The notes under the pieces were generated by a model. The model had not been told where the DNA came from, did no database searches, and saw only the letters and a program-made list of their open reading frames with translations. From a bacterium (lineage in GTDB: Bacteria > SZUA-182 > DTGQ01), in assembly GCA_040755755.1 (NCBI GenBank), contig JBFLZW010000022.1:66902-130901 (forward strand): a stretch of DNA of 64,000 nt. The letters are read 5' to 3'. Positions 38,169-57,386 of this stretch are shown in pieces. The position numbers and the translations under genes were made by a program. Positions within the stretch are counted from its first letter, which is position 1. Every line of letters starts with the position of its first letter.

Positions 38169-38226
38169 TCCACTGACCACTATTCACAGACCACTAACCA
38201 CTGTCTTTACTGACCACTGACCACTC
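38169..38226. repeat. Inverted array of cactgaccac words
   Basis: Five degenerate ctgaccact/cagaccac/ctaaccact words fill the whole gap between the regulator's stop and the sulfatase gene's start. On the minus strand they read agtggtcagtgg and reach to within one base of the ATG, so the repeat occupies the ribosome-site region. Confidence 0.65.
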
Positions 38227-39590: not shown

Positions 39591-40100
39591 CTACGATTCT
39601 TTTTGTTTTTTCACGAGGAATTGAAGGATAGTTTGATTGAGCTGGGATATTTCCTGTCTAACCTGCCCGATTTCTTGCCTGACCTGCCCGATTTCAGAGT
39701 CAATCTTCTGACTTAATCCATCTATCCTCTGGTTTACTTGCCCGATTTCTTGCCTGACCTGTCCGATTTGAGTATCAATCTTCTGGTTTACCTGCCCGAT
39801 TTCAGAGTCAATCTTATGGCTTACCTGCCCGATTTGAGAGTCAATCTTATGGCTTACCTGCCCGATTTGAGAGTCAATCTTATGGCTTATTTGCCCTATT
39901 TCAGAATCAATCTTTTGTCCAAGGGTATCGATCCGCTGGTTCAGGTACCGGAAATCCTCCTCTTGCTTTTGTTTTAATTCCGCGATGTCTGTCCTGATTT
40001 CGGCAGTTCTCTCCTCTACGGTCTCATAGATCACTTCCAGGGTAACTTTTCTGACTACCTTTTTGACCATCTCCTTTGATATTGGAATCTTGGGTATCAT
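39591..40100 (-). CDS. Hendecad coiled-coil repeat protein
   Basis: The 169-residue product has an N-terminal basic/helical region with KVTLEVIYETVEER. It is followed from residue 64 by tandem 11-residue units of the type IDSQIGQVSHK, some shortened to seven residues (IGQVNQR), ending LNQTILQFLVKKQ. Hendecad plus heptad mixing predicts a long right- to left-handed coiled coil, probably trimeric or dimeric. It is a close relative of the fragment at 1-242. There is no signal peptide. The function is unknown. Confidence 0.72.
   Translation of the reverse strand: MIPKIPISKEMVKKVVRKVTLEVIYETVEERTAEIRTDIAELKQKQEEDFRYLNQRIDTLGQKIDSEIGQISHKIDSQIGQVSHKIDSQIGQVSHKIDSEIGQVNQKIDTQIGQVRQEIGQVNQRIDGLSQKIDSEIGQVRQEIGQVRQEISQLNQTILQFLVKKQKES
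39636..39911 (-). repeat. Tandem 33-bp coding repeat in the coiled-coil gene
   Basis: 33-bp units (one hendecad each), together with shorter 21-bp units, repeat nearly unchanged. The three copies around 39800-39890 are almost identical, which suggests slippage-driven length change. Confidence 0.8.
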
Positions 40101-40289: not shown

Positions 40290-43200
40290 TTACTGGTTAT
40301 CCAGGCAGGAAGGCTGTCCCAGATACTTTTTAAACAGGCACAGAGCGTCAGCCGGAGTAACGCTGCCATTCCCATCGACATCGGCACAATCGCTGCACGG
40401 TCCTGCGGCAAGATAACACTGGAAGGCGATCAGAGCGTCTTTTGGCGTAATGCTGCCATCTCCGTTAAGATCGCCATCGCAGCTATAGATGCAGAAGCAG
40501 CCTGGAGTGGCGGAAAACTTTGCCAGATCGTCCGTCAATTCTTCCAGCCTCAGGGGATAACATCCACCTTCCATGCCACCCCTGACCTTGAACTTCAGGA
40601 TGACCACAGTACCGCTTGCTTCCTTCGGGATACCCTGGGTGGAGTATCCTCCTGCGATCAGTCTGCCGGAGCCAATGGAATTGACCGAAAAGCTCGGGAA
40701 AGAGGTTACCAGGTTCCCTGGTTCAAACCCCAGGTACTCCAGGACAGATGGCTTGTAGCTTACCTCAAAGCCAAGGGAAGAGACTGCACCGGGCGCTTTT
40801 TGAATCCTTACCGGTATCTTGACTTCTTCGTCCACCCTGCCTTGGGTCCCTTCGATGTCCAGTTTTCCGGAATCATCTTCCTCGCACACGATCGGTTGAA
40901 TGGTGATCGTAGCTGTGCAGGAGATGGTGTTACCGGCCTTATCACTGGCAGTAAAGATGACCGTGGTCTTGCCAGGCGGCAGGATTTGCGGAAGCGCGGA
41001 TTTTATCCCTTCCTCGTTGACACCGGAGGGGACATGGCAGGTAACCTCAACCTTGCCATCTACCGCATCCCAGGCTTTAGCCTCGGACAGGAAGGCAACT
41101 ATTTCGGGATCGTCAGCAGGCGTACCTGCACTGGTTATCTGGGCAATGACCCTGTCTGCCGGGCAGTCGATTTCAGGTGGAACAGTGTCCTTCAGGCAGA
41201 TACATCCTCCGGTTTTGGAAAATTGAACCAGATCATCGATCGGTTTTTCCAGGTCTAAAGGATAGCAGCCGTCTTCCAGATCACCGATAACCTTGAATTT
41301 CAGCCATACGAGCCTGCCGCTTGTTCCCTTGGGGATTGCTTTATCAGAAGCTCCTCCGACGATGAGTCTATCAGTGCCAATGGAATTGACCTGAAACAAG
41401 CGGAAAGAAGTTACCAGATCGCCTGGTTCATATCCAATGTACTGCAAAATATCCGGCCTGTAGACTACTTCAAAGCCAAGGGCAGAGACACTGGTGGGCG
41501 CCTTTTGAATCCGTACCGGGATTTTAACCTCACCTCCCGCTATCCCCTGGGCTCCTTCGATATCCAGCGCTCCGCTACTTTCCTCTGTACATCCAGTTAC
41601 TAGCGGATGGCACCACAAAACGCTTCCAGCGGCCTGGGCAGTGGAGATGGGGCAGCAGATCTGGGCGGGTTGAGTACTGCTTGCCGGACAGGGTCTGCAC
41701 CACAGGACATCCGAGCTTACTTCGGCTGTTGCCAGCGGGCAGCAGTAGTTGATAATGCTGCCATCGACATTTTGGGCAAACGGACAGGGGCGGCACCAGA
41801 GAATATCGGAGCTGACCTCTGCGGCTGGCAGGGGGCAGCACCACTGCCTGAGAGTCTCATCCACACCGGCAGCCAGAGGACAGGGTTTGCACCACAGATC
41901 CTGGCCGGTACTGGTGGCAATGGGACAGCAGTAAATATTCAGCTCCTTGTCAGCAGTTTTGGGATAAGGACAGGGCCTGCACCAGAGCTGGTTATCGACC
42001 TCTTTGGCTATCGGACAGCACCAGCGGGTGAGCAGGCCGTCTTTTTCCACCACATAGGGGCAGGGTCTGCACCACAGGGCCTGATCGGCCACATCAGCCT
42101 GGGCCAGCGGACAGCACCAGCGAATGACACTGTTATCCAGCTTGGCAGCTATGGGACAGGGTCTGCACCACAGGCGCACTCCTTCCACGGAAACATCGGG
42201 CACCGGACAGCACCACACCTGGATACTGTTATCAACATTCGTGGCCAGAGGACAGGGTCTGCACCACAGTGCCTGGTTAGTTACTGTGGCTGTAGCCACC
42301 GGGCAGCAGTAGGCATTGGGGCCTGCCGTTCCAGTATCAGCCACAGGACAGGGCCTGCACCAGAGCTGAATATCGGCGGTGGCAGCCACCGGACAGCAGT
42401 ACCTGACCTCGCCGGTTGGCAGCTTGTACGCATAGGGGCAGGGCTTGCACCACAGAACATCCGCGCTCACCTCGGCTGTGGCCAGGGGGCAGGGATAACA
42501 AATTTGAGCCGGAGGAATCACTTGAGCCTGAGCATCATACTTTTCAATAGTGATTGAGATAATCCGGCCACTTGCATCCATCTCGAAACAAACCTTGACC
42601 TGATCGCCGGCCTCGATATCTTCAGCCTGGGTCAAAGGTACCGAAATCTCACGGATATTTCCCGACTCATCAACTATCTTCAGATCAGAGCGGCCTGTTG
42701 AGACATGGTGCTGGATTTCCCTTACCTTGGCGATTATGCAATTGTCAGGCAGCGGTGTTACCGGCACCGGACAGGGTTTGCAGATCAGAGCAGGCGATGT
42801 ACCGGCAACTATCGGGCAGGGATAGCAGCGGAGGACATTTGCGCTCACCTCGGCTGTAGCCAGCGGGCAGCAGCGTTTTATGGTTCCATCGGCCATCTTG
42901 ATCTCATAGGGACAGGGTCTGCACCACAGAACATCCGAGCTTACTTCGGCTGTTGCCAGCGGGCAGCAGTAGTTGATAATGCCGCCATCGACATTTTGAA
43001 CAAACGGGCAGGGGCGGCACCAGAGAACATCGGAGTTGACCTCTGCGGTTGGCAGCGGGCAGCACCACTGCCTGAGAGCCTCATCCACGCCAGCGGCCAG
43101 AGGACAGGGTTTGCACCACAGATCCTGGCCGGTACTGGTGGCAATGGGACAGCAGTAAATGTTCAGCTCCTTATCCGTGGTTTTGGGATTGGGACAGGGC

Positions 43201-46200
43201 CTGCACCAGAGCTGGTTATCGACCTCTTTGGCCAGTGGACAGCACCAGCGGGTGAGCTGGCCATCCTTTTCCACCACATAGGGGCAGGGTCTGCACCACA
43301 GGGCCTGATTGGCCACATCAGCCTGGGCCACCGGGCAGCACCAGCGTATGACAGAGTTATCGAGCTGGACAGCTATGGGGCAGGGTCTGCACCACAGGCG
43401 CACTCCTTCCACGGTCGCATCCGACACCGGGCAGCACCATGCCTGGATATTGTCATCAACATTCGTGGCCAGAGGACAGGGCCTGCACCACAGTGCCTGA
43501 CTGTCCGCCGTAGTTGCAGCCACCGGGCAGCAGTAGGCATTGGGGCCTGCCGTTCCGGTATCAGCCACAGGACAGGGCCTGCACCAGAGCTGAATATCGG
43601 CGGTGGCAGCCACCGGACAGCAGTACCTGACCTCGCCGGTTGGCAGCTTGTACGCATAGGGGCAGGGCTTGCAGATCAGACTGGGCGATGTACCGGCAAC
43701 TATCGGGCAGGGATAGCAGCGGAGGACATTTGCGCTCACCTCGGCTGTAGCCAGCGGGCAGCAGCGTTTTATGGTTCCATCGGCCATCTTGATCTCATAG
43801 GGACAGGGTCTGCACCACAGAACATCCGAGCTTACTTCGGCTGTTGCCAGCGGGCAGCAGTAGTTGATAATGCCGCCATCGACATTTTGAACAAACGGGC
43901 AGGGGCGGCACCAGAGAACATCGGAGTTGACCTCTGCGGTTGGCAGCGGGCAGCACCACTGCCTGAGAGCCTCATCCACGCCAGCGGCCAGAGGACAGGG
44001 TTTGCACCACAGATCCTGGCCGGTACTGGTGGCAATGGGACAGCAGTAAATGTTCAGCTCCTTATCCGTGGTTTTGGGATTGGGACAGGGCCTGCACCAG
44101 AGCTGGTTATCGACCTCTTTGGCCAGTGGACAGCACCAGCGGGTGAGCTGGCCATCCTTTTCCACCACATAGGGGCAGGGTCTGCACCACAGGGCCTGAT
44201 TGGCCACATCAGCCTGGGCCACCGGGCAGCACCAGCGTATGACAGAGTTATCGAGCTGGACAGCTATGGGGCAGGGTCTGCACCACAGGCGCACTCCTTC
44301 CACGGTCGCATCCGACACCGGGCAGCACCATGCCTGGATATTGTCATCAACATTCGTGGCCAGAGGACAGGGCCTGCACCACAGTGCCTGACTGTCCGCC
44401 GTAGTTGCAGCCACCGGGCAGCAGTAGGCATTGGGGCCTGCCGTTCCGGTATCAGCCACAGGACAGGGCCTGCACCAGAGCTGAATATCGGCGGTGGCAG
44501 CCACCGGACAGCAGTACCTGACCTCGCCGGTTGGCAGCTTGTACGCATAGGGGCAGGGCCTGCACCACAGAACATCCGAGCTTACATCGGCTGTAGCCAG
44601 CGGGCAGCAGATTATTTGCGGGGCAGTTCCGGTCGTCGGACAGGGATAGCACCAGGGGATAGAATCGCAGTTTTGGCCCCAGATGGTTAGATCATCCCAG
44701 AATACTTTCAGGTAGTCGCCCGATCCTGGCGGGAAATTCCCCGCTGCGGTCAATATCACCTGGATGGTTCTGACCTCGCACCACTTGATGGGAATGTCCT
44801 TTTCAAGACTTCTCTCCAGGGTATTCCATTTGTCCTGAGTGGAGGATTCTATGAGAATCGTGGTGTTCGGTTCCAAAGACTGGGAACCGTTCTTGAACAA
44901 AACATAGGAGCGCTGGCCCATGGTCTGTCCGGAGGCGTTACGGGCAATAACTTCCACACTCACTCTGCGATAGGCGCTGCGGGAAGTCATAACCTGTTGA
45001 ATGCGATAGGAAAGCTTAAGGTTGAGGTCTTCGCATCCGCAGAGATAAAATTCACGGGAAGCGCTGACCTTGCCTGGATATTTTTCCGGGTCGATTGGCG
45101 CTATTATGGTGGGATCCACGACTATCTGAGTGGCATCCGCCACGAGCAGAGGATTCGCAGCTATCAGAGTATCACTTGAAGCCTTGATAGTAGCGGTACT
45201 GCTGCTGGTCTTTTCCAGATAACCTTCCAGAAAAGCCCGGATTGACCGTTTGGGCGAGACATATGCTTCCGTTGAATAATCAATTTCCTGGGTCACCGGA
45301 AACGGCTTGGTTACTGGTCCCTTGGTGAACTTCCAGGTGTCCAGTTCCATGTTATCGAAGTGCCTGCATGGACAGCAGAATTGGGCTGGCACTGTATCGG
45401 CAGCAACCGGGCAGGGCACCGGGCACACTATGCACTTTTGCTCCGGAATGGCAGAAGCATAGGGGCAGCACCTGTTTATGGGATCGGTGCAGGGAAGCGG
45501 GCAGCATTTTTGCGCTGGAGCAGTGCTGGAAATCGGGCAAACAATAGGCGGGATAACCACCTCTTTAATCACGCCGAGCAATTGCCCGGTTTTCTTATTG
45601 AAGAATTTCACTTCATACGTGCCGGGCTCCAGGCATCCGATTTTTGTAGTGATATCATACGTGCAGATACATCTGCATCCACTGCCTTCTAACTTTTCCT
45701 CTTCATAGATATTGATGGTATTTCCCGTCATACTCATGGTGACGGCGATTTCCTCAATGCAGCAGTTGTACGAGGCGTTCTCATGGAACAGGTAAAGGAG
45801 ATTGTCATGATAACTGCAGGTAAATTTCTCCTCTTCCGCAGATCGTCCCGTAGTGGAGGAAATCTCTTTTTTGCAGCCGCTGTTTTCATAATTCACGATT
45901 GAAGGGCCGGTTATGGATGTCCCAACAGGAGTTGCAGTTACAGCGGTTTTCGATATATCGATATTCGAAGCTATAGTCGAAGAGACAGAAGCAGTAAGCG
46001 CGCCAGCGGCAGTGACAGCCTCCCGGTAGCGGACCTGGACATCGGGTTGCGGAGCAAATCCGGTCGGCAGGATAGCGGCATAGACATTTTTATGACCGCT
46101 TCTGGAATCGACCCAGATAATCCTGTCCCCGGAAATAGCCGGGAAAGTCTGATCTCCGCTCTGGTCGGTAATTTGAAATTCCTTATGGGTATTCAGATCG

Positions 46201-47123
46201 TAACCATAGATATCCCAGTTTCCGTTTCGGTCATCCTGCCAGACAACGATATTGCCGCAGATATCCGGAACCTGCTGCTTCCCTTCGTGGACGCAGATGG
46301 CGATTTCCTGCTTTGTGGCCAGATCGTACAGGTAAATATCGTCGTTGCCGTTTCTTTTGTCCTGCCAGACAACCTTTGTTCCACTGACAGCCGGGTAAGC
46401 CTGATTATCAGCCGCCGTACAGATGGGGAACTCCCGGCCGGTCGTCAGGTCAAGGCCATAGATGTCATAATTGCCCGACCGCTCGTCCATCCAGATGATG
46501 TAATTGTCGGAAATGACCGGATTCCCCTGCCAGGAAGGATCGAGGCAAATAGCATATTCCTGGCTGGTTCGCAGGTCATAGAGAAAGATGTCCGGGCTGC
46601 CGGTCCGCAGGTCCGCATACACGACGCGCTCTTTCTGAATATCTCCGTACCCCTGCCATTCCGGATTCGTGCAGATGGGAAACTCCTCATCTGTCTCCAG
46701 GTCATATCCGTACATGTCGTAGTATTTGAAGATGTATGCATATTTATTCTCGACAGACGGATCATCCATGATGCTCCGGTAATCCATCCAGATAACCTTG
46801 TTTCCCCAGATGGCCGGATACTTTTCCGCAGCCGCGCTTTGACCGAGTTGCCTGCTGCTGCCGGTCTCAAGGTCACTCAGGAATACCTTGTAGTAATAAT
46901 CGTCTCCCTGCTGCATCCAGACGACTTTCGTATCGTAGATTTCCGGAACTTCCTGATCCACGGGCTGAGGATACAGCGCCTGCCCGCTCAGAGACAGATT
47001 CGTCTCCGAATTTGTCCTGCCTTCCTGAACTCCCGTAAACCCTATGCCAATGGCCATGATGAAGAACACGAGGCAACAGAAGCTCGACAACTTGGCCCAC
47101 CAGATGTTTTTTAACTTAGCCAT
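40290..47123 (-). CDS. Giant secreted propeller / CxPCP-CCP repeat / cohesin / dockerin protein
   Basis: The product is about 2,277 residues from the ATG at 47123; a GTG at 47132 is an alternative. In order it has a signal or anchor segment (residues 10-33) and a TolB/PD40-like propeller (about 50-345, blades ending like VVWQDDRNGNWDIYGYDL). A Cys-rich patch (about 530-595) and a jelly-roll-like domain (about 600-820) follow. About 1,000 residues (825-1845) then have C-x-P-C-P alternating with C-C-P every 30 or so residues, typically WCRPCP-x(11)-WCCPLA. A non-repetitive insert of about 90 residues lies at 1455-1545. Two cohesin-like domains (about 1850-1980 and 2090-2215) flank an HYR-like domain. 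A dockerin (two DxNGDGxxTxxDA loops) ends the protein. There are about 32 CxPCP motifs. None is CxxCH, so haem attachment is not expected; disulfide or metal binding is inferred. Family unknown for the repeats. Confidence 0.85.
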   Translation of the reverse strand: MAKLKNIWWAKLSSFCCLVFFIMAIGIGFTGVQEGRTNSETNLSLSGQALYPQPVDQEVPEIYDTKVVWMQQGDDYYYKVFLSDLETGSSRQLGQSAAAEKYPAIWGNKVIWMDYRSIMDDPSVENKYAYIFKYYDMYGYDLETDEEFPICTNPEWQGYGDIQKERVVYADLRTGSPDIFLYDLRTSQEYAICLDPSWQGNPVISDNYIIWMDERSGNYDIYGLDLTTGREFPICTAADNQAYPAVSGTKVVWQDKRNGNDDIYLYDLATKQEIAICVHEGKQQVPDICGNIVVWQDDRNGNWDIYGYDLNTHKEFQITDQSGDQTFPAISGDRIIWVDSRSGHKNVYAAILPTGFAPQPDVQVRYREAVTAAGALTASVSSTIASNIDISKTAVTATPVGTSITGPSIVNYENSGCKKEISSTTGRSAEEEKFTCSYHDNLLYLFHENASYNCCIEEIAVTMSMTGNTINIYEEEKLEGSGCRCICTYDITTKIGCLEPGTYEVKFFNKKTGQLLGVIKEVVIPPIVCPISSTAPAQKCCPLPCTDPINRCCPYASAIPEQKCIVCPVPCPVAADTVPAQFCCPCRHFDNMELDTWKFTKGPVTKPFPVTQEIDYSTEAYVSPKRSIRAFLEGYLEKTSSSTATIKASSDTLIAANPLLVADATQIVVDPTIIAPIDPEKYPGKVSASREFYLCGCEDLNLKLSYRIQQVMTSRSAYRRVSVEVIARNASGQTMGQRSYVLFKNGSQSLEPNTTILIESSTQDKWNTLERSLEKDIPIKWCEVRTIQVILTAAGNFPPGSGDYLKVFWDDLTIWGQNCDSIPWCYPCPTTGTAPQIICCPLATADVSSDVLWCRPCPYAYKLPTGEVRYCCPVAATADIQLWCRPCPVADTGTAGPNAYCCPVAATTADSQALWCRPCPLATNVDDNIQAWCCPVSDATVEGVRLWCRPCPIAVQLDNSVIRWCCPVAQADVANQALWCRPCPYVVEKDGQLTRWCCPLAKEVDNQLWCRPCPNPKTTDKELNIYCCPIATSTGQDLWCKPCPLAAGVDEALRQWCCPLPTAEVNSDVLWCRPCPFVQNVDGGIINYCCPLATAEVSSDVLWCRPCPYEIKMADGTIKRCCPLATAEVSANVLRCYPCPIVAGTSPSLICKPCPYAYKLPTGEVRYCCPVAATADIQLWCRPCPVADTGTAGPNAYCCPVAATTADSQALWCRPCPLATNVDDNIQAWCCPVSDATVEGVRLWCRPCPIAVQLDNSVIRWCCPVAQADVANQALWCRPCPYVVEKDGQLTRWCCPLAKEVDNQLWCRPCPNPKTTDKELNIYCCPIATSTGQDLWCKPCPLAAGVDEALRQWCCPLPTAEVNSDVLWCRPCPFVQNVDGGIINYCCPLATAEVSSDVLWCRPCPYEIKMADGTIKRCCPLATAEVSANVLRCYPCPIVAGTSPALICKPCPVPVTPLPDNCIIAKVREIQHHVSTGRSDLKIVDESGNIREISVPLTQAEDIEAGDQVKVCFEMDASGRIISITIEKYDAQAQVIPPAQICYPCPLATAEVSADVLWCKPCPYAYKLPTGEVRYCCPVAATADIQLWCRPCPVADTGTAGPNAYCCPVATATVTNQALWCRPCPLATNVDNSIQVWCCPVPDVSVEGVRLWCRPCPIAAKLDNSVIRWCCPLAQADVADQALWCRPCPYVVEKDGLLTRWCCPIAKEVDNQLWCRPCPYPKTADKELNIYCCPIATSTGQDLWCKPCPLAAGVDETLRQWCCPLPAAEVSSDILWCRPCPFAQNVDGSIINYCCPLATAEVSSDVLWCRPCPASSTQPAQICCPISTAQAAGSVLWCHPLVTGCTEESSGALDIEGAQGIAGGEVKIPVRIQKAPTSVSALGFEVVYRPDILQYIGYEPGDLVTSFRLFQVNSIGTDRLIVGGASDKAIPKGTSGRLVWLKFKVIGDLEDGCYPLDLEKPIDDLVQFSKTGGCICLKDTVPPEIDCPADRVIAQITSAGTPADDPEIVAFLSEAKAWDAVDGKVEVTCHVPSGVNEEGIKSALPQILPPGKTTVIFTASDKAGNTISCTATITIQPIVCEEDDSGKLDIEGTQGRVDEEVKIPVRIQKAPGAVSSLGFEVSYKPSVLEYLGFEPGNLVTSFPSFSVNSIGSGRLIAGGYSTQGIPKEASGTVVILKFKVRGGMEGGCYPLRLEELTDDLAKFSATPGCFCIYSCDGDLNGDGSITPKDALIAFQCYLAAGPCSDCADVDGNGSVTPADALCLFKKYLGQPSCLDNQ
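42793..43668 (-). repeat. Tandem duplication, unit 891 bp, downstream copy
   Basis: This stretch reads the same as 43684-44559 at an offset of 891 bp (297 codons) wherever I compared lines. Both copies lie in frame inside the giant Cys-rich gene. The borders are marked by a few substitutions at 42790-42792 and at 43669. Confidence 0.85.
43684..44559 (-). repeat. Tandem duplication, unit 891 bp, upstream copy
   Basis: This is the second member of the apparently identical in-frame pair. Each unit carries ten CxPCP and nine CCP motifs. A third, clearly diverged copy follows at about 41600-42480. Confidence 0.85.
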
Positions 47124-47331
47124 GATCCTCACTACTCCTTTCTCTGACTCTCCTCTTTTTTTTTACTCTCAACTACCTGTGCTTCCAAGACAAATTATAA
47201 AGAATTACCTGTTTTTTTCCTCTTCGCCGTGTTCACCTCCTTATGAAAAGGGCGCTCATATGTGCTGGTATGCCGGGGCATTTCAGGAGCCGGGAAACCG
47301 GACAGGATATCCCTCTCCCCTATTTTGAGGC

Positions 47332-47714: not shown

Positions 47715-48354
47715 AAAGGGATAAGAGGATCATAACGAATACTTCTGAACTGCTTCCAGATTCATTCACTGACCGCGTGTACTGGTACGGTGCAGGTTAC
47801 AGTAAAGCGCAAGTTATTCGTGCTGGCTATTACTCTATTATACTACATTTATAATGCAACCCGCATGCCATAAGGTTGCCGCTGATTGGGGGGTATTCTG
47901 TAAGCTACGATATAACAAAATGTTATGAGGTAATCTCCGCTGATCAGATCAGCGTGAATTATTTTGAAGGCCATTTTGTCGTCAACGATGTTTACGTAAG
48001 GAGGCTGAAATCCATTATTCAGAAGTCAGAAGTCAGGAGCCAGGAGTCAGGAAAAGATGATTGCTTATTCTGAATTCTGACGCCTGATTCCTGACTCCCC
48101 TGGAAAAGTTCAGCTCTCAGCCGTTTAGAGTATAAGCTCAGGGAAGCGTTTTTCTCCCTCATTCGTTTGACTTTATATGGCAAGTATTCCAGAACTATAG
48201 TAGAATTATGGAAAGAATCCCGCTACCAATCTGGAAAGCCGGTACGGATTTAATGTGCAGTGGATTCAGAGCATCTCACAGGACAGCATCAACGGTGAGA
48301 TGTCAACGGTGTTATTAATAGTAAACTTAATTTACAAAAGGTGGAGGGAAAAGA
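47715..48354. other. Intergenic region with inverted repeat, upstream of the sigma-54 activator
   Basis: This 640-bp gap between divergent genes holds an imperfect inverted repeat at 48020-48103, with gtcagaagtcaggag words paired to ctgacgcctgattcctgactcc. It is the same repeat type as 12766-12845. No convincing gene or clean promoter was found in it. Confidence 0.55.
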
Positions 48355-49902
48355 GTGGCGGTAAATGAGCCTGAAACGATTTACCAGCGACTTGCCAACC
48401 TTAAGTTTCGGCTGGAGCAGGTTACCCGATCCTGGACAGTTGATGATTATGAAGCCCTGTTGAAGTTTTACGTGGCCATTCTGCCGAAGGTTATGGATGC
48501 CGAACGCTGCACCATTTTCATGGCTGACGCTGAGATAGGCAAGATCTGGTCGATGTTCGGCACCGGGCTGGAAGGAATAAAAATCGAGCCGCCGAAAGAT
48601 GAAAGCGTTGTCGGCAGGGCTGTCTCGACCGGCCAGTGTATTGTCGAGCATGACCTGGACAAGCGGCAGGGATTTCATACCGAAACTGATGCCAGGACCG
48701 GCTTTGTCACTCACAGTCTGGTCTGCGCCCCCATCAGGAGTCTGACCGGACGTGGTGTGGCCGGTGCCATCGAAGTGCTGAACAAGGCAGAGGGGCGGCA
48801 GTTTACCCGGCAGGATGTGGAGCGGTTGCAGGAAATCGCCAATTTCCTTTCAGCTTCCATCGAGGGCATACTCCTGAGCCGGGAGATCCTGCGGATATCA
48901 AGCCAGTTGAACTGCGAGGTCGAGCAATTTGAAAAAAATTATTTCCGGGATGTCCTCTTTATTGTCGAAAGCCCGGTCATGAGGAATATCATCGACGAAG
49001 TGCGGATGATCAGCAAGACCCCGGTCAATGTATTTATTCATGGAGAGCACGGGACAGGCAAAGAGCTGATTGCCCGTATGATCCATGAAGGAAGTGACCG
49101 GCGCGATAAGCCCTTTGTGGCTGTCAACTGCGCTTCGATCCTTGAAAGCCTGATGGAAAGCGAGTTCTTCGGCTATGAAAAGGGGGCTTTCACCGGCGCT
49201 GTGGCGAGCCGCAAAGGCCGGTTTGAAGAGGCTGACGGCGGCACGTTATTTCTGGATGAGGTGGCCGATATGCCCCTGGCCATCCAGCCGAAGTTTCTCC
49301 GGGCCATTCAGGAAGGGGAAGGCTGCCGGCTGGGAAGCAACAGGCTGATGCGCTATAATCTGCGCATCATCAGCTCCACCAACAAGGATCTTCGGCAGGA
49401 GGTGGCGAGCGGGCGTTTCCGTGAGGATCTGTTCTTCCGGCTGTTTTCGGTCGAGATTCATATTCCGCCCCTGAGAGAACGCCGGGAGGATATCGTTACC
49501 ATGGCCCTGGCTTTTCTGGACAGGGTAAGCCAGCGCTTTAAAAAAAGGGTGGCCGGGTTCTCTCCGGAAGTGTTGAGCTTATTCGAGGAGTATTCATGGC
49601 CGGGAAATGTTCGTCAATTACTTCGGGAGGTGGAACATCTGGTTGCCTTGACCCCTGAAGGGGAGCGGATTACCATTGACAAGTGCTCGCGGGAGCTGCA
49701 AAATTTCGGCCATTCTCTGCACGAGAAAGAGACCGCCGGTTATTCGCTTCCTGACCAGGTAAGAGCCCTGGAAATCAGACTCATCAGGAAAGCGCTCCAG
49801 GAAGCCCGGGGGAATAAGAATAAGGCCTCCGCCTTACTGGGGATTACCAGGCAGGGCCTGCATAAGAAAATCAAGCGGTACTGCCTTGACGAGGAGCCGT
49901 GA
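48355..49902 (+). CDS. Sigma-54-dependent activator with GAF sensor domain
   Basis: The 515-residue NtrC-family regulator uses a GTG start with GGAGGG six bases upstream. An N-terminal GAF domain (about 30-180, with DAERCTIFMADAE and VVGRAV) replaces a receiver domain. The AAA+ module has Walker A GEHGTGKE near 230, the sigma-54 contact loop GAFTGA near 277, Walker B GGTLFLDEVADM and the R-finger region. The C-terminal Fis-type helix-turn-helix is at about 470-505 (ARGNKNKASALLGITRQGLH). It directly precedes the cytochrome island, whose first gene has a -24/-12 promoter, so local control is likely. The GAF ligand is unknown. Confidence 0.94.
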   Translation: MAVNEPETIYQRLANLKFRLEQVTRSWTVDDYEALLKFYVAILPKVMDAERCTIFMADAEIGKIWSMFGTGLEGIKIEPPKDESVVGRAVSTGQCIVEHDLDKRQGFHTETDARTGFVTHSLVCAPIRSLTGRGVAGAIEVLNKAEGRQFTRQDVERLQEIANFLSASIEGILLSREILRISSQLNCEVEQFEKNYFRDVLFIVESPVMRNIIDEVRMISKTPVNVFIHGEHGTGKELIARMIHEGSDRRDKPFVAVNCASILESLMESEFFGYEKGAFTGAVASRKGRFEEADGGTLFLDEVADMPLAIQPKFLRAIQEGEGCRLGSNRLMRYNLRIISSTNKDLRQEVASGRFREDLFFRLFSVEIHIPPLRERREDIVTMALAFLDRVSQRFKKRVAGFSPEVLSLFEEYSWPGNVRQLLREVEHLVALTPEGERITIDKCSRELQNFGHSLHEKETAGYSLPDQVRALEIRLIRKALQEARGNKNKASALLGITRQGLHKKIKRYCLDEEP

Positions 49903-50098: not shown

Positions 50099-50168
50099 AT
50101 TACAAACTCCGGAGAATAACTGATAACTGATGACTGTCTTTGCAGGGCTTCGGGAGCGGAAGAAATTT

Positions 50169-51161
50169 ATGATGTTTTTGAAATTGATTTTAAAGCACAA
50201 AGGATTTCCGGCAGGTTCCTGTATTTTGTCACTTTTCTTTCTTTTCCTCTTCACCTGTCCAGTCCGGGCCAGGGAGCCCTCCGGGGCGGACGCATTGTAT
50301 CGGTTTGACCGGCAGGTTCAAATGAGTTTTTCCGGAGCACGGTCCGGCAAGCCCACGTCCCTGGCTATCGATTCGACCGGCAGGCTCTTTGTTGTCTGCT
50401 CGCTGACAAACGATGTCCGGGTCTTTGATTCCGCCGGACGGTTTCTGTTTGCTTTCGGCAGAGAGTCTTCCAGCCAGGACAAGTCTGGTAACAAAGGGGT
50501 GCTCAAAGAGCCTTCGGGGATAGCGATTGATAAACAGGACCTTATCTACATCAGTGATCTGGCTGCGGACAGGATTTTGATTTACAGCTCGGATGGCAGG
50601 TTTCTGGACCAGTTTCCTTTGCATCAGCCGGAAAAGGGGCGTGAAACCTGTGCTCCTTTTATCGCCTATAATCCTTATGACAATCGGCTTTATGCTGCCG
50701 ATGCCTGCAATCACCTGGTTGGGGTCTACACGCTGAAGGGAGAATTCAAAGCCAGTTTTGGCACAGCAGGAACAGGGGAGGGGGATTTGAGCGGCCCGGC
50801 TCATATCTCGTTCGATACCAGGGGAAATATCTATGTGGTTGATGCAGGTAATTTCAGGGTTCAATCTTATACTCCTGATTTCAAGTTCCGCTTTGCGTTC
50901 GGCAGGAGCGGGACGAAAGAGGGAGAGTTTGTCCGGCCTTATGGCCTGGCCATCGATGCCAAAGACCGGATTTATGTTTCCGATTTTATTGCGAATTCAG
51001 TCCAGGTATTCAACAATAAAGGGCAATACCTGGTCTCGGTGAGTCAGCCTGATAATCCCAGACTGTTCAGCCAGCCTCTCGGTCTGGCATGGGTGAATAA
51101 TAAAATCTATGTGGTTAATGCGGAGACAAAAGTTGTTTCAGTATTCGACATTGCAAAGTAG
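50169..51161 (+). CDS. Secreted NHL-repeat beta-propeller (cytochrome partner 1)
   Basis: The product is 330 residues from the ATG at 50169 (GGAAG six bases upstream); an earlier ATG at 50130 lacks a well-placed site. The signal peptide ends near VRARE. Six NHL-type blades follow: SLAIDSTGRLFVVCSLTNDV, GIAIDKQDLIYISDL, IAYNPYDNRLYAAD, HISFDTRGNIYVVDAGNFRV, GLAIDAKDRIYVSDF and GLAWVNNKIYVVNA. The protein is extracytoplasmic. NHL propellers are found next to secreted multihaem cytochromes in Geobacter-type bacteria, where their role is unclear. Its end overlaps the cytochrome gene start by 53 bp. Confidence 0.85.
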   Translation: MMFLKLILKHKGFPAGSCILSLFFLFLFTCPVRAREPSGADALYRFDRQVQMSFSGARSGKPTSLAIDSTGRLFVVCSLTNDVRVFDSAGRFLFAFGRESSSQDKSGNKGVLKEPSGIAIDKQDLIYISDLAADRILIYSSDGRFLDQFPLHQPEKGRETCAPFIAYNPYDNRLYAADACNHLVGVYTLKGEFKASFGTAGTGEGDLSGPAHISFDTRGNIYVVDAGNFRVQSYTPDFKFRFAFGRSGTKEGEFVRPYGLAIDAKDRIYVSDFIANSVQVFNNKGQYLVSVSQPDNPRLFSQPLGLAWVNNKIYVVNAETKVVSVFDIAK

Positions 51162-53154
51162 GTATCGGAGAATCACTCTCCAGTGGACTGTAGGCATTGT
51201 TGGTGCTCTGGTGACGATATTTTTCAGCTTTCAAACCGTCTGCGCTCTCAACGGACCCCATGCCTGGTGCGTACCCGATGACCCCTGCGGGGCCTGTCAT
51301 CTTCCTCACCATGCTGCCGATGACCTTCTCTGGGCGCGTACTCCGGGAGGAGAATTTACCGGAACCAAGCGGCTGTGCGGTACCTGTCACGGAACTCATC
51401 TCTTTGGGGCCAGGGATTACATTTTTATTGAGGAAGGAAATGATCATCCCATGGGAGCCAATGCTTCCCTTCAAGGGCCGGCAGTGACCCGGAAAGACTG
51501 GGCCGAATTCCCTCTGCGGATAAAGGAGGGGGGGGATGGGTTCTATTGCGGGAGCTGTCATAATCCTCACACCGATCCATTCGAGGGCGGCGATTACCTG
51601 CGGGAGTCCTCCCCGGGCACGATTCAGAATACCTCACAGAAACATTATGAATTCTGCATTCAATGCCATGCCCCCCTCATCCAGGGCAATGCTCGTGGAC
51701 ACGGAACCAGAGACGGCTGCTTTGACTGCCACACTCCGCATTATTCTCCCAATCGCGGAAAAAAAATTATCAGGACCGAAAGCACCGTTCTCTTCAAGGC
51801 AGTGCCCAACGTACCCGGTTTTTCCGATCCGGCGGCTGAATCGTATGCAGCCAGTTGCTATGGCTGCCATCGGGCACAGGGCGGGGGCGATGGATCATTC
51901 ATGGCCCCGTTCAATGGAGACGATTGTCAGATCAGATACGAACATCACCCTATGGGCACAGGCGCGGACGCTACACTCGATGGGCATCAGAAGACCGCGG
52001 CAGGCCCCCTCTCGCCGGAAGGAGAACTTTACTGCAAATCCTGCCATGATCCTCACAAGGGTACCAATGGAAAATACCTGAATCCCCAGGTCATCACCAG
52101 CTACGATCCGGCTCATCCCGGAGCCTTCTGTGTCGCCTGCCATTCTGATAAAGCGGTCAGTGATCTTGAGCCCACTTCAGGACGGGGGCATAATCAGGTC
52201 GGGCGTTCAACCGGCCAGCAGTCCCAGAATGAAAATGAGTGCCTTTTCTGCCACTCCATTCATCAATCAGCGGATGAACCAGCGGCTGTTTGCCAGACTG
52301 ATAGCGATATCGCAACCGAAGTGAATTCCTCAGTTTCGACCGATGTAATCATGCGGATTGTGCCGGTAAACCTGCAATGGGCTGATAAATTCCAGGACCA
52401 GGATACCCGTGATTATGAGGATGCCTGCTATGGCTGCCATGCGCGGTCTGAAATCGTTGGGTCAAAAGATGCTGATAACGATAAAAATTCCCTCCTCTTT
52501 GACAATGTGGACGAGCGGTACTTTTCACACCGGTTTAATGTCGTGCCGAGCAAAGTCATCAATACCCTGGATCCCTTTGAGGATGGGAAACCGGTTGTTT
52601 CCGATGGCAGAGAGAAGAAGTGCCAAAATGACTACGGGATCGAGAAGGATAAAATCTGGTGTGGAAGCTGTCACAATGTCCATAGGCAGGATTCCCCGCC
52701 TGTCCACTACTCGCAGGAATTTACCATCCGGCGCACAGCGTACCTTCGCAGGTCGAATGTGACCGAGGACTTTTCCGGCTCTGCACTGTGCATTGCCTGT
52801 CACACCAGTAAGCCGATATCTGCCGAGACCGAATCCTCCCATCCGGTCAACAGGCCGCTGAAACAGAAAGCGGTTCAATTCGGTGCTCATTTTCAGGGTT
52901 ATGTCACCGCCGGTTTCAGTGGAGGGATTGGAGGACAGACCTCAAACGACACGCTGGATGGAGATATCATCTGCCAGTCCTGCCACAGTGTCCATACAGC
53001 CGTGACCAGGCATGACGGGATCAGCCGGGCTGGAAAAGTGAATGCCGGAAAACTCCTGATCATTGATAATGCCATCGGCGGCAGGTTCATGAATCAGCCC
53101 GAGTACCAGTATGGCAGTGGATTATGCTTTAATTGCCATTATGGGATGAATTAA
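51109..53154 (+). CDS. Secreted 14-haem c-type cytochrome
   Basis: The 681-residue product has a long basic N-region and a signal helix (GIVGALVTIFFSFQTVCA). I count 14 CxxCH haem-binding motifs, from CGACH near residue 60 to CFNCH nine residues before the end, with many additional histidines as distal ligands. The paired motif style (CGSCHNPH, CKSCHDPH, CQSCHSVH) is typical of large deltaproteobacterial cytochromes. The start overlaps the NHL gene in another frame, implying coupled translation; an ATG three codons later is also possible. It is probably periplasmic or extracellular in electron transfer, with partner unknown. Confidence 0.92.
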   Translation: MWLMRRQKLFQYSTLQSRYRRITLQWTVGIVGALVTIFFSFQTVCALNGPHAWCVPDDPCGACHLPHHAADDLLWARTPGGEFTGTKRLCGTCHGTHLFGARDYIFIEEGNDHPMGANASLQGPAVTRKDWAEFPLRIKEGGDGFYCGSCHNPHTDPFEGGDYLRESSPGTIQNTSQKHYEFCIQCHAPLIQGNARGHGTRDGCFDCHTPHYSPNRGKKIIRTESTVLFKAVPNVPGFSDPAAESYAASCYGCHRAQGGGDGSFMAPFNGDDCQIRYEHHPMGTGADATLDGHQKTAAGPLSPEGELYCKSCHDPHKGTNGKYLNPQVITSYDPAHPGAFCVACHSDKAVSDLEPTSGRGHNQVGRSTGQQSQNENECLFCHSIHQSADEPAAVCQTDSDIATEVNSSVSTDVIMRIVPVNLQWADKFQDQDTRDYEDACYGCHARSEIVGSKDADNDKNSLLFDNVDERYFSHRFNVVPSKVINTLDPFEDGKPVVSDGREKKCQNDYGIEKDKIWCGSCHNVHRQDSPPVHYSQEFTIRRTAYLRRSNVTEDFSGSALCIACHTSKPISAETESSHPVNRPLKQKAVQFGAHFQGYVTAGFSGGIGGQTSNDTLDGDIICQSCHSVHTAVTRHDGISRAGKVNAGKLLIIDNAIGGRFMNQPEYQYGSGLCFNCHYGMN

Positions 53155-53827
53155 CGTAACTACCCAGGTTCAGAGGGGCAAAGGCAGCTCAACTTCCCGA
53201 ATAATTGGAAATTACCGATTGACTTGGGTTTATACCTTTGTTATATTATATCATATTTGTAAATATGCAACCCTATGTATTTTACGCTGAGTATACTTCT
53301 CTGAGACAAGAGATCGCCTCCCCGGCAGGATTATACAGTAGACGAATGCATTTTCTGATGGGCTGAAATGGCATTTCCTGTCATGGTAAATCGGAGAAAC
53401 AGCCGATATATGACAATACACTCGAAATCTTGTGAATACTCCTCTGATGTCGAAGGCGTTGACCACACCCCGGCAGTGAATAATAAGTTCGCATTTTCTT
53501 TCATACTGTGTAATCGGATTCATAGTTGATATTTTCTATTCCTGTTTGCCGGAATAACCTTGAGAATTTCAGGGAAGGGCTCCTGGTTTTTGTTCAGGCC
53601 AGTTACCTTCACCAGCAAAAAATCTCGGGATACCAGCCAGGTATGGGGGAGTCGTGGTATTTATTTTGCATCCTTTAATGATGCACTATGTCGGAGCGGT
53701 TTTTGAGGAGCGGGGTTTTTCGGAGTTTTTTCCCGGGCTGACTGAATAACCTGGCGCGAGTTGAGTAGCGGTGCATGCGGAGAAAATAGATGACGGCACA
53801 ATTCAAACTTGGAGGGGGATAAGATTT
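53155..53827. other. Intergenic regulatory region before the second NHL gene
   Basis: This 673-bp gap is AT-rich and has no supported gene; a 90-codon minus-strand frame at 53251-53523 has no family or ribosome-site support. It contains the sigma-54-like element at 53655-53671 and an adjoining inverted repeat (tgcatc ... gatgca, 53667-53685). Confidence 0.5.
53655..53671 (+). promoter_or_regulatory. Possible second sigma-54 promoter
   Basis: tggtatttattttgcat has GG and GC ten bases apart and a good -12 half (TTGCAT), but the -24 half is only TGG. The predicted start near 53681 would leave a leader of about 147 bases. A short palindrome overlaps the start site. Confidence 0.45.
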
Positions 53828-54913
53828 ATGAAGCGGTTTTCATCCAGTTTATGGATTTTTTTCCTGATCAATCTGCTGGTCCAGTTTTTTCTTGTTTCAC
53901 CGCCGGCCTTTTTCAAAGCTGAAGCCAAAGAGACCACGGCAGGTAACAAGGCAGGCAGACAGAAGGCCGGGGACCGGAAAGATGCTCAGGCTGAAGACGA
54001 TCAGGAGCAGAAGGTTGAAAACAGGTCGGTTAAACTTGTCGGCACCCTGGGTGAATCCCGGACTGTCGAGATGAAGGGAGGCCAGGATGGTATCGCGGTA
54101 CATCTGGCCCAGAATTCGAAGGGTGATCTTTATGTAGTAAAAAATATACCCTCCGAGATAGCGGTTTACAGCAGGGATGGCAAGTTTTTATTCAAATTCG
54201 GCAAGGAAGGCAGTGGTCCGGGTCAGTTCCTCCAGCCGTTCAGCGTCGCCATTGATAGTCAGGATAAAGTATACATCTGTGATGTCAAGCGGGAGAAGAT
54301 ACTGGTTTTTTCCTTTGCCGGTGAATTTGTGGAAGAATTTTCCTCCAAGTCGGCTCTGACCGCAGATGACAAATATCAGAATGCCGCTCCGGGTTGCATT
54401 GCCATTGATAAGAAAAGCAATCGGCTCTATGTCAGTGATGCCTCGAATGGCCATATCTGGATTTATGATCTGCATGGCAAGTTTTTGCAGTATTTTAAAG
54501 GCAAGGAACAAGGCATGTTTTGCACTCCCGGAGTTGTCTGCTTCGATCAGCAGAACCGGATATTTGTGCCGGAAGGTATGTGCGACCGGGTTCGGGTTTT
54601 TAAGCAGGACGGAACAGAGCTTTTTCAGATCGGCGGGCAAAGCGGGGAACTGGCCGGTCAGTTTTCCCGTTTGACGGGAGTGGCTGTTGACAGTAAAGGC
54701 CGGGCTTATGTAAGCGACCTCCTTCTGAAATGTGTTCAGGTATTCAGCCCTGAAGGGAAATTTGTCGGTGCAATCAAGTGGATGGACAGCAAAGAGGGTA
54801 AGACCTATTTCACCATGCCAACGGGAATCTTTATCGGGAATGACGGCTCGATTTTGGTTACTGATCAGGAGGTCAATAAGATTTATATAGTCAAGGATGG
54901 AAATCAAAAATAA
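53828..54913 (+). CDS. Secreted NHL-repeat beta-propeller (cytochrome partner 2)
   Basis: The product is 361 residues from the ATG at 53828, which has GGAGGGG nine bases upstream. A signal segment (WIFFLINLLVQFFLV) leads to a charged Lys/Glu/Asp linker (residues 35-70), then NHL blades: AVYSRDGKFLFKFGKEG, SVAIDSQDKVYICDV, IAIDKKSNRLYVSDASNGH, VCFDQQNRIFVPEGM, GVAVDSKGRAYVSDL and GIFIGNDGSILVTD. It is related to the propeller at 50169-51161 and likewise precedes a multihaem cytochrome, so the pair looks duplicated as a module. Confidence 0.85.
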   Translation: MKRFSSSLWIFFLINLLVQFFLVSPPAFFKAEAKETTAGNKAGRQKAGDRKDAQAEDDQEQKVENRSVKLVGTLGESRTVEMKGGQDGIAVHLAQNSKGDLYVVKNIPSEIAVYSRDGKFLFKFGKEGSGPGQFLQPFSVAIDSQDKVYICDVKREKILVFSFAGEFVEEFSSKSALTADDKYQNAAPGCIAIDKKSNRLYVSDASNGHIWIYDLHGKFLQYFKGKEQGMFCTPGVVCFDQQNRIFVPEGMCDRVRVFKQDGTELFQIGGQSGELAGQFSRLTGVAVDSKGRAYVSDLLLKCVQVFSPEGKFVGAIKWMDSKEGKTYFTMPTGIFIGNDGSILVTDQEVNKIYIVKDGNQK

Positions 54914-55118
54914 TCATGTCTATCAGTCAATAAACAGCTTATTGAAAAAGGGAAGGAGTGGACAATGATGACGTAGCCGGTGATTGAATGGAGAGATTCG
55001 ATTTTGAGAGTTTGGGAAGGTTGTTATTATCCGGAATTGAGAGGGTTTAAAATTTAAGATGCTGAACCGTATTAAAATGGTTGGGAGAGAGTGCTTATGG
55101 AAGAGAGGGGATCGAACA

Positions 55119-57386
55119 ATGAATAAAAAGCTAAAAACGATACTGTCTTTTCTCGGAATCTGTCTGTTTATCCTTTTCTGCTGTTCCCCTGGAGCTTACG
55201 CGGTTGACGGATCAAGGCAAACACCGTATAACGGGCATTTGTGCGTGGTATCTGGATCGAACAAGCAGGTTTGCGCCAATTGTCATATCCCCCACGCAGG
55301 AAAGGGAGCAAGAATCTGGGCCAGGAGTGAGGTTCAGGGCAAGGAGGCAACGGTAAAGACCCTGTGCGCCAGTTGCCACTATCAGGGAAATAAAGATTTT
55401 CCCCAGGTTGAATCCGGGCTGCGCATGAAGGGAAACGGCCAATATGGAGGCAAGTTCGCTGATTTGAATAATAAAAATGGAAACGTTTTTTCGGGAGGCA
55501 GCGCCAACCATGTCATGGGGCCACAATTCCAGCCCAACAGGGATGGAGGCACAAGCTATCTCAGCAGCACTGAGGGAGATGGAGGCAGAGAGGCTGAGGT
55601 CGTCGGTTTCCCCTTCTCAAAAACCGAGGGCTTTTATTGCGGCTCCTGCCATAACCCCCACCAGCAGCCAAATAATGATGAATCAGGACATGGAGATTAC
55701 CTGCGGCTTAACTCGAAAACCGGCAGTGCAGGTGAAACCCACGACCGCAGGGCATTCTGCCGTCAGTGCCATCCGAAGGAAGGTAATATCAAGGGCACGG
55801 ATGGAAAGTCGGTGGTCCATGTCCACGCGGGTGACGAAGGTGATCCTCAGTGCGAAGCCTGCCACCGCCCCCATGATGGATTCCACGATGCTGATCATCC
55901 AGAAAATGATGCCATGATATTTCTCGATCGTCTGGACCCCCTGGGAATCTGGACCTACGGAACAGAAAACTCGGGGTTCCAGCAATCTCTGGGGAGAAAT
56001 GCCGGGGCTCTCGGTGTGAAATATGAATCGCAGAATTGTACTTCATGCCATCTTTCAACGACTACCTGGCCCAATGCTCCGAAATTGGATAAAACCCGTG
56101 CTCATCACCCCATGGGTCAACGATGGGCACAGACCTCCTGCGGTGTTTCGGGATGTCATGAAGGCAAGGTTCCAGGAAATGGGCTCCTTTTTAAATTGGA
56201 AGGTTCCACTGCAGATGGAAAATCCGCCCCCTTTGATCAGCAGATTTTTGGCTGTACCTCATGCCATGCATCCCATACTACCGAGATAGAGGGCAATCCA
56301 AGCTTCCTGCGGTTTGCCTCTTTCAAAGATGACGATACTGCCCTGTGCGAATATTGCCACAACGATCCCAAGCATCCCAAAAGCCGGAAAATGCTTGAAG
56401 CCAATGGCGGACTTCATTTTAAAACCAGGAACGATACCAAGAACCGGGTTGAACGGACCTTCAAGGCCACGAGTGTCCGTCCGGAGAAGAAGGTTAAATG
56501 CGGCGGCTGCATGTTCTGCCATTTCATTCACTCGAACGACAAGGATGATCCCAGAGCTGGTGTATCTCCGCTCCGGGCTGATATCGATGCCATGATGAGA
56601 GTCCCTGCCGTAAAACTGGATTGGGGATCTCAGGGAGATACCACCCTGAAAGCCGATCCACTCGACCGATATGAAGCCATGTGCTATGGCTGCCATAGTA
56701 ATTCCACCATTGTCGGCAGCTACGAGAAGAACGGATCGCTCCTGAACCCGACGGCGCGCCAGAGCCATCGGTTTGCCTGCAAACCGGTCAGTCCCAATAC
56801 CCGTGAGAACATCATTTCCGCGGGGGGCGTCGGTGTTCCGAAATTCCTGAAGGCCGACGGCAAGGCGGGTTCGGCAGGCGGGGTCATGGATGATTATGGC
56901 ACGGTCGAGGGACAGATCTTCTGCGGTACCTGCCATGATGTCCATATTAATACCAAACCGCCGTATCTGTATCGCCTGACCGAGGACGACCATAAATCGC
57001 CGTTCGAGGCCAATGGCTACTGCGAACAGTGCCATTGCACGGCCACGAATCCTGACCCGATGGCCCAGGGGACGACTCACCCGGTTGGAGCCGACAAGAA
57101 ACCCAATGGCCGCAATACCTGCACGGCATTTCCCAAGCAATTTTTCGGCGGCAAGAGCGGTTCCCCGCTGGGTGTTACTGCCGGGAACAATACCGCCACG
57201 GATGGTGTATTGTGCCTGACCTGCCACAACACCCATGCAGCCGCAACCGCCTGGGATGGAACCATTGCCGGAGAGACTCGTCCAGCCGCTGGACAAAAAG
57301 GCAAGCATGGCCAACTGCTCGTTCAGGATAACTACTCGGCGGCACCAGGCAGCAATATGTGCAGCGCCTGTCATGATCAATTCTAA
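55119..57386 (+). CDS. Secreted 15-haem c-type cytochrome (14 CxxCH + 1 CX4CH)
   Basis: The product is 755 residues from the ATG at 55119 (GAGGGG eight bases upstream); the frame is open further up without a site. A classic signal peptide ends near AYAVD. I count 14 CxxCH motifs plus one CGVSGCH (CX4CH), which can also bind covalent haem. One motif is embedded in the cysteine-rich string KCGGCMFCHFIHS. It shares motif style and the C-terminal pattern (CLTCHNTHAA ... GQLLVQDN ... CSACH) with the 14-haem protein, so the two are homologous but diverged. It is the last gene before the terminator at 57469. Confidence 0.93.
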   Translation: MNKKLKTILSFLGICLFILFCCSPGAYAVDGSRQTPYNGHLCVVSGSNKQVCANCHIPHAGKGARIWARSEVQGKEATVKTLCASCHYQGNKDFPQVESGLRMKGNGQYGGKFADLNNKNGNVFSGGSANHVMGPQFQPNRDGGTSYLSSTEGDGGREAEVVGFPFSKTEGFYCGSCHNPHQQPNNDESGHGDYLRLNSKTGSAGETHDRRAFCRQCHPKEGNIKGTDGKSVVHVHAGDEGDPQCEACHRPHDGFHDADHPENDAMIFLDRLDPLGIWTYGTENSGFQQSLGRNAGALGVKYESQNCTSCHLSTTTWPNAPKLDKTRAHHPMGQRWAQTSCGVSGCHEGKVPGNGLLFKLEGSTADGKSAPFDQQIFGCTSCHASHTTEIEGNPSFLRFASFKDDDTALCEYCHNDPKHPKSRKMLEANGGLHFKTRNDTKNRVERTFKATSVRPEKKVKCGGCMFCHFIHSNDKDDPRAGVSPLRADIDAMMRVPAVKLDWGSQGDTTLKADPLDRYEAMCYGCHSNSTIVGSYEKNGSLLNPTARQSHRFACKPVSPNTRENIISAGGVGVPKFLKADGKAGSAGGVMDDYGTVEGQIFCGTCHDVHINTKPPYLYRLTEDDHKSPFEANGYCEQCHCTATNPDPMAQGTTHPVGADKKPNGRNTCTAFPKQFFGGKSGSPLGVTAGNNTATDGVLCLTCHNTHAAATAWDGTIAGETRPAAGQKGKHGQLLVQDNYSAAPGSNMCSACHDQF

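Follow-up and report, generated by a model that had tools for sequence, protein, structure and literature searches.

An apparently undescribed array of cysteine-pair motifs in a predicted cohesin-dockerin surface protein of an uncultured bacterial lineage

Introduction

The described proteins closest to the one analysed here are the cohesin-dockerin surface proteins that do not belong to cellulosomes, such as those of ANME archaea. In the part of the published account used here, these proteins are likewise exported, with two cohesins and one dockerin, and the genomes that encode them likewise contain many cohesin and dockerin domains (PMC9012536). The propeller repeat of our protein, TIGR04275, belongs to a family that was named from Methanosarcina. 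The difference lies in an array of cysteine pairs of about 1000 residues, which was found neither in the libraries searched nor in the same part of that account (PMC9012536).

Cysteine-rich proteins of other kinds resemble the array locally. The cysteine-rich domains (CRDs) of minicollagens, from cnidarian nematocysts, are extracellular like the array and share with it conserved prolines and vicinal CC (PMC4863159). This comparison was made by motif alone; a minicollagen CRD is a compact six-cysteine domain located at the ends of a collagen, whereas the array is a tandem structure with 12-residue spacers, and its cysteine positions do not follow the CRD pattern CX3CX3CX3CX3CC. Keratin-associated proteins contain CCxPx pentapeptides and therefore, like the array, CC and Pro at short intervals. 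However, they have a 5-residue period, belong to the intracellular hair matrix and lack the Trp-flanked CxPCP and the longer spacing of the array. The local string W-C-x-P-C is shared with thioredoxin, but the array has no thioredoxin domain and repeats the motif every 16-32 residues or so. Metallothioneins, rubredoxin and zinc knuckles also have paired cysteines at short spacing; unlike them, the array contains 69 aromatic residues, 12% Cys and Pro in place of Gly, and has no match to these families.

Architecture of the array protein

The window, that is the whole stretch of 64,000 nucleotides of bacterial DNA that was analysed, contains the array gene and its parts at the following positions:

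40290..47132, minus strand: array gene, one open frame of 2280 codons from a GTG, encoding a predicted exported multi-domain protein
47028..47123, minus strand: export signal, a basic N-terminus and then a hydrophobic stretch, as read from the sequence
46062..46955, minus strand: N-terminal beta-propeller, TolB-like, with seven TIGR04275 (beta_prop_Msarc) repeats (NCBIfam)
45363..45539, minus strand: small Cys/Pro cluster with three CCP, residues 532-590, present also in the sister species
44667..45362, minus strand: domain of about 230 residues, ending in ...FWDDLTIWG, between the Cys/Pro cluster and the array
43674..44657, minus strand: cysteine-pair array, entry cap and block A, residues 826-1153
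42765..43673, minus strand: cysteine-pair array, block B, residues 1154-1456, a near-identical copy of block A
42513..42746, minus strand: segment of about 75 residues that interrupts the array (NCIIAKVREIQHHV...ITIEKY)
41589..42506, minus strand: cysteine-pair array, block C, residues 1543-1848
41268..41570, minus strand: cohesin domain 1 (PF00963, Pfam)
40899..41192, minus strand: HYR-like domain, sub-threshold (20.4 bits against a Pfam cut-off of 21.7)
40563..40865, minus strand: cohesin domain 2 (PF00963, Pfam)
40329..40475, minus strand: C-terminal dockerin type I (PF00404, 24.5 bits against a cut-off of 22.9)

From the N-terminus onwards, the order is export signal, propeller, linker with the Cys/Pro cluster, ~230-residue domain, array, cohesin, HYR-like domain, cohesin and dockerin. 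The propeller matched TIGR04275 with an E-value of 1.5e-77 (255 bits as compared to a cut-off of 85 bits, NCBIfam), and PF00963 was found in two stretches, both over the cut-off (69.8 bits as compared to 24.1). With cohesin and dockerin both over the Pfam cut-off, the protein is, on its domain matches, an exported, scaffoldin-like cohesin-dockerin surface protein. A reading made earlier from the letters of the window (the sequence-only reading) had described a giant secreted protein, in agreement with the export signal, but had overlooked the cohesin-cohesin-dockerin tail and the propeller, which would make the protein part of a cohesin-dockerin surface network. As that reading also stated, CxxCH haem sites are lacking (0 in 2280 residues), so that the protein is not a multihaem cytochrome. 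The frame is intact, being open over all the 2280 codons, and an intact orthologue of 2064 codons is present in the sister species, from an independent assembly. An ATG at 47123, where the sequence-only reading had placed the end of its interval, is preceded by AAGGAG and is a likelier start than the GTG.

The three CCP motifs located outside the dense array cluster at residues 543-590, and the small Cys/Pro cluster may be a short precursor of the array. The domain at 44667..45362 gave no PDB match, and a stretch overlapping it had no Pfam match; from the look of its sequence only, it is possibly a binding module of the jelly-roll type. The segment of about 75 residues that interrupts the array is unrelated to it in sequence, gave no Pfam match over the cut-off and is kept in the sister species. 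Two antisense open reading frames over the array, at 41607-42557 and 42705-44690 (plus strand), were rejected as genes, since the propeller, cohesin and dockerin domains are encoded in the minus frame.

Repeat grammar and block structure

The array protein contains 32 CxPCP and 31 CCP motifs, which confirms the count of about 32 CxPCP, alternating with CCP, given by the sequence-only reading. When the same protein was shuffled, the two motifs together occurred 1.2 times on average and 6 times at most, as compared to the 63 observed. The dense array corresponds to residues 826-1848 (about 41589-44657) and contains 28 of the 31 CCP and 124 of the 171 cysteines of the whole protein (12% Cys), together with 40 Trp, 29 Tyr, 3 His and 3 Met in 1023 residues. 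The proposed cysteine-repeat region of roughly 1,000 residues is therefore this dense array, and not the whole 40290-47123 interval.

The step from CxPCP to CCP is 17 residues in 26 of 28 cases, and the step from CCP to CxPCP is either 13 (9 cases) or 15 residues (18 cases). When the arrays of three genomes were pooled, 95 of 112 spacers between motifs of either type were 12 or 10 residues long. Between CxPCP and CCP, 42 of 48 spacers had 12 residues; between CCP and CxPCP the same length was found in 31 of 48, and 13 of the remainder had 10. The spacer is mostly about 12 residues long whichever motif types flank it, and the elementary unit is a two-cysteine motif followed by this spacer, that is about 16 residues and not 30. 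The previous description of four cysteines per 30-residue module is correct as a density, but not as the repeating unit. Similarly, alternation is the general pattern without being strict, since two CxPCP directly succeed each other three times in this array and 13 times in that of the sister species. Of the 32 CxPCP, 27 have Trp before them and 28 have Arg or Lys as x, while CCP is preceded in most cases by Trp or Tyr.

The array is made of three blocks. A (residues 857-1153) and B (residues 1154-1450), of 891 nt each, differ by 4 mismatches, all close to the block ends; they are so alike either through recent duplication or, possibly, because of an error in the assembly. Over 250 shared codons, the DNA of block C has 92% identity with that of A. 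Since the array of the sister species has an internal block duplication of its own, growth by whole-block, in-frame duplication is probably real.

Selection on the array

When blocks A and C were compared, 7 silent and no replacing changes were counted in Cys, Pro and Trp codons, and 32 of 32 cysteines were kept, 4 of them through a silent codon change; the remaining codons gave a dN/dS of 0.39. For the window's genome compared with the sister species, dN/dS was 0.14 for the array and 0.15 for the cohesin-dockerin part, both rough values as dS is above 1. When two-module units of three genomes were aligned, only columns of Cys, Pro and Trp were invariant. Judged by these substitutions, the array is under selection at the protein level.

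Novelty and distribution

No match to the array was found in Pfam (best score 11.9 bits as compared to a cut-off of 27) or in NCBIfam, and the array profile had no match in the PDB. The sequence-only reading knew of no named repeat family with this pattern, and on these searches the repeat indeed appears to be previously unnamed and undescribed. When 386 genomes across Bacteria were searched with a profile, the array was found in only three related genomes, namely the window's genome (G000), the sister species (G001) and a genome (G004) that belongs to the same order but to another family. In a sample of nine genomes of the phylum, the array is missing from two other genera of the window's family. 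As far as the sampled genomes show, it appears restricted to one order. The array gene of G004 is truncated by the start of its contig, and the array continues into MopE-type motifs (PF11617) and a Gly-rich tail, which replace the cohesin-dockerin end.

A degenerate DNA motif scan of 84,980 species, with one genome each, returned two true contigs, from the sister species and from G004; as it requires Trp before one CxPCP, strongly diverged relatives could be missed. Six further whole-genome matches and two viral ones were attributed to chance, most of them being broken by stops and none fitting the array profile. Three plasmid matches obtained by tblastn (24-38% identity) were also set aside; that on a Vibrio plasmid is antisense to an annotated gene, and that on a Paenibacillus plasmid has no annotated gene.

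The cohesin-dockerin set

The window's genome contains 25 cohesin and 29 dockerin domains and the sister species 21 and 19, respectively, as compared to 0-9 of each in the other phylum members. Several other large secreted proteins of the window's genome have a similar C-terminal cohesin-dockerin arrangement, with heads that include VWA, a PQQ-type propeller with Kazal, NosD-like and MopE motifs. Because this end is shared, the array protein is, by domain content, one of a set of cohesin-dockerin proteins, in which the array likely determines how long or how stiff its own protein is.

Low-complexity C-terminal tails rich in Trp/Ser or in Gly/Tyr/Pro were seen on several large exported proteins (58001-61207 on the plus strand, L077 and L056:1-1740); they are possibly a sorting or surface signal.

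State of the cysteines and possible role of the array

Structure prediction, which the sequence-only reading had named as a way to check its proposal, gave no fold: with staggered 19-row and 5-row orthologue alignments, AlphaFold2 returned no confident residue (pLDDT of 34.8 and 30.8). A test for the hydrophobicity alternation of beta-hairpins in the spacers was also negative (p of 0.62 and 0.38). DsbB and VKOR were not found in the nine phylum genomes, nor was a canonical DsbA in the three carriers. The window's genome has a DsbA-like protein with a CPFG motif, the sister species has one weak match and G004 has none. DsbA matches are present in six of six non-carriers of the phylum, as compared to canonical DsbA in none of three carriers; this anti-correlation is suggestive, in a sample of few, related and incomplete genomes (n = 9). 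The lack of canonical DsbA in carriers sharpens the question of the state of the array cysteines. Kazal domains, which in known proteins are a disulfide-bonded fold, occur in the secretome of the window's genome (E = 1.5e-13), so that disulfides can probably be made outside the cell.

Starting from the grammar, the export-type architecture, the cohesin and dockerin domains, the selection on Cys, Pro and Trp and the block duplication, we tentatively prefer to see the array as a stiff structural stalk or rigid spacer, braced by cysteine pairs, in an exported scaffold. Each unit would consist of a two-cysteine corner (CxPCP or CCP), which usually comes after Trp or Tyr and ends in Pro, and of a spacer some 12 residues long. 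The corner cysteines may be tied as disulfides, either within the corner or to the next one, and would make of the chain a compact, protease-resistant rod. The rod would keep the propeller head at a distance from the cohesin-cohesin-dockerin end, and this end would plug the protein into the cohesin-dockerin surface network of the cell. Interchangeable two-cysteine motifs with a spacer that does not depend on the motif are what is expected of self-contained corners, and variation in block number by in-frame duplication is like that of length-variable stalks. The conservation of Cys, Pro and Trp, between blocks A and C and among the three genomes, also favours a stalk. The Kazal domains, the export and the even cysteine number of the motifs favour the disulfides, as does the unlikeness of CxPCP to a rubredoxin or zinc knuckle. 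On the other side, the low pLDDT and the negative beta-hairpin test count against it, and carriers devoid of DsbB, VKOR and canonical DsbA are awkward for about 60 disulfides per chain, although the inventory covered these three proteins in only nine, related genomes and other oxidases may exist.

The same lack of canonical DsbA, DsbB and VKOR may allow free thiols to persist, and CxPC and CC corners together give four thiolates per module of about 30 residues, the right number for tetrathiolate sites. An extracellular rod loaded with a soft metal or cluster (Zn, Cu, Cd, Ni or Fe-S), for storage, detoxification or stiffness, is thus credible, although rather unlikely, and the MopE-type putative metal-binding motifs into which the G004 array protein continues are in line with it. 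However, no metal-binding family of Pfam or NCBIfam matched the array at a meaningful score, Zn_ribbon_RPB9 reaching only 11.1 bits against a cut-off of 25.2. Metallothioneins are short, with about 30% Cys and almost no aromatics, Trp and Tyr being atypical of them, whereas in the 1023 residues of the array aromatics flank the cysteines and His and Met are nearly lacking. Furthermore, CxPCP has Pro and not Gly after the second Cys, in contrast to the CPxCG-type knuckle of rubredoxin and zinc ribbons, and this Pro occupies a hydrogen-bonding position, where rubredoxin and zinc knuckles use a backbone NH. It is doubtful that the array is a new tandem-repeat fold of one small lineage, whose corners, Trp-flanked CxPC and vicinal CC, would line up along a surface rod plugged into the network as a continuous ladder of redox-active dithiols or of sites where thiolates hold metal. 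We regard as improbable that the cysteines form intermolecular cross-links, giving an insoluble sheath or matrix and not a monomeric stalk, as in minicollagens or hair keratin-associated proteins. The dense Cys-Pro corners in a long chain resemble minicollagen CRDs, which form polymers through the reshuffling of disulfides (PMC4863159), and cohesins and dockerin would bring chains together; nevertheless, the even number of cysteines per motif fits intramolecular pairing too, and the Dsb problem is the same as for a stalk.

That about 60 dithiol pairs store reducing equivalents, or hand them on, at the surface of the cell seems quite improbable. LWCxPCP is similar to the thioredoxin active site WCxPC, a string that hardly varies among the CxPCP corners, a vicinal disulfide can form at CC, and multihaem cytochrome genes are divergent neighbours in both species of the genus. 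Yet the array did not match thioredoxin at E<=10, its 12-residue spacers are too short for the fold, and the NHL/cytochrome neighbourhood is shown in one genus only, with the genes oppositely oriented. Moreover, disulfide exchange is two-electron chemistry, which is not known to conduct over distance. Finally, the very low AlphaFold confidence and the growth by duplication might indicate a fast-evolving, largely unstructured low-complexity linker with passive cysteines, but we consider this very improbable, given that Cys, Pro and Trp are unchanged across diverged copies and three genomes while silent changes accumulate.

The array is a clean repeat, simple in its grammar and strongly selected at its corners, and the uncultured lineage that carries it has unusually many cohesins and dockerins. 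Protein materials would gain a building block from any of three outcomes, with corners that act as disulfide braces, bind metal or work as redox units.

Genomic neighbourhood

The genes on the upstream side are oriented divergently from the array gene:

48355..49902, plus strand: GAF-sigma54 activator, divergent upstream neighbour of the array gene
50130..57386, plus strand: NHL/multihaem cytochrome genes, two pairs

Downstream, on the array strand, there are genes for a small coiled-coil-like protein, a short protein, a response regulator and a sulfatase-TPR fusion. Most neighbour genes are in the same order in the sister species (54-88% identity), including the activator and the NHL/cytochrome genes; G004 has other downstream neighbours, and its upstream side is past the contig end. 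The adjacency to NHL/cytochrome genes noticed by the sequence-only reading is thus conserved in the sister species, but these genes lie beyond the sigma54 regulator and on the opposite strand. Relatives of the cytochrome encoded at 55059-57386 occur in nine of nine phylum genomes, whether the array is present or absent. The idea of an electron-conducting fibre, which has only proximity in one genus in its favour, gained no further support, and a functional link between array and cytochromes is possible but unsupported.

A sigma54-like -24/-12 site with one mismatch was observed at 47855-47870 (minus strand), about 730 bp upstream of the array gene and near the GAF-sigma54 activator gene; 2.5 such sites are expected by chance in the window. 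The small open reading frame at 39591-40100 (minus strand) encodes coiled-coil-like 11-residue repeats (KIDSQIGQVSH) that derive from a 33-bp tandem DNA repeat, and its best match in the stretch fetched from the sister species sits elsewhere on the contig. In the gene at 35313-38180 (minus strand), a sulfatase domain is fused to a long TPR array.
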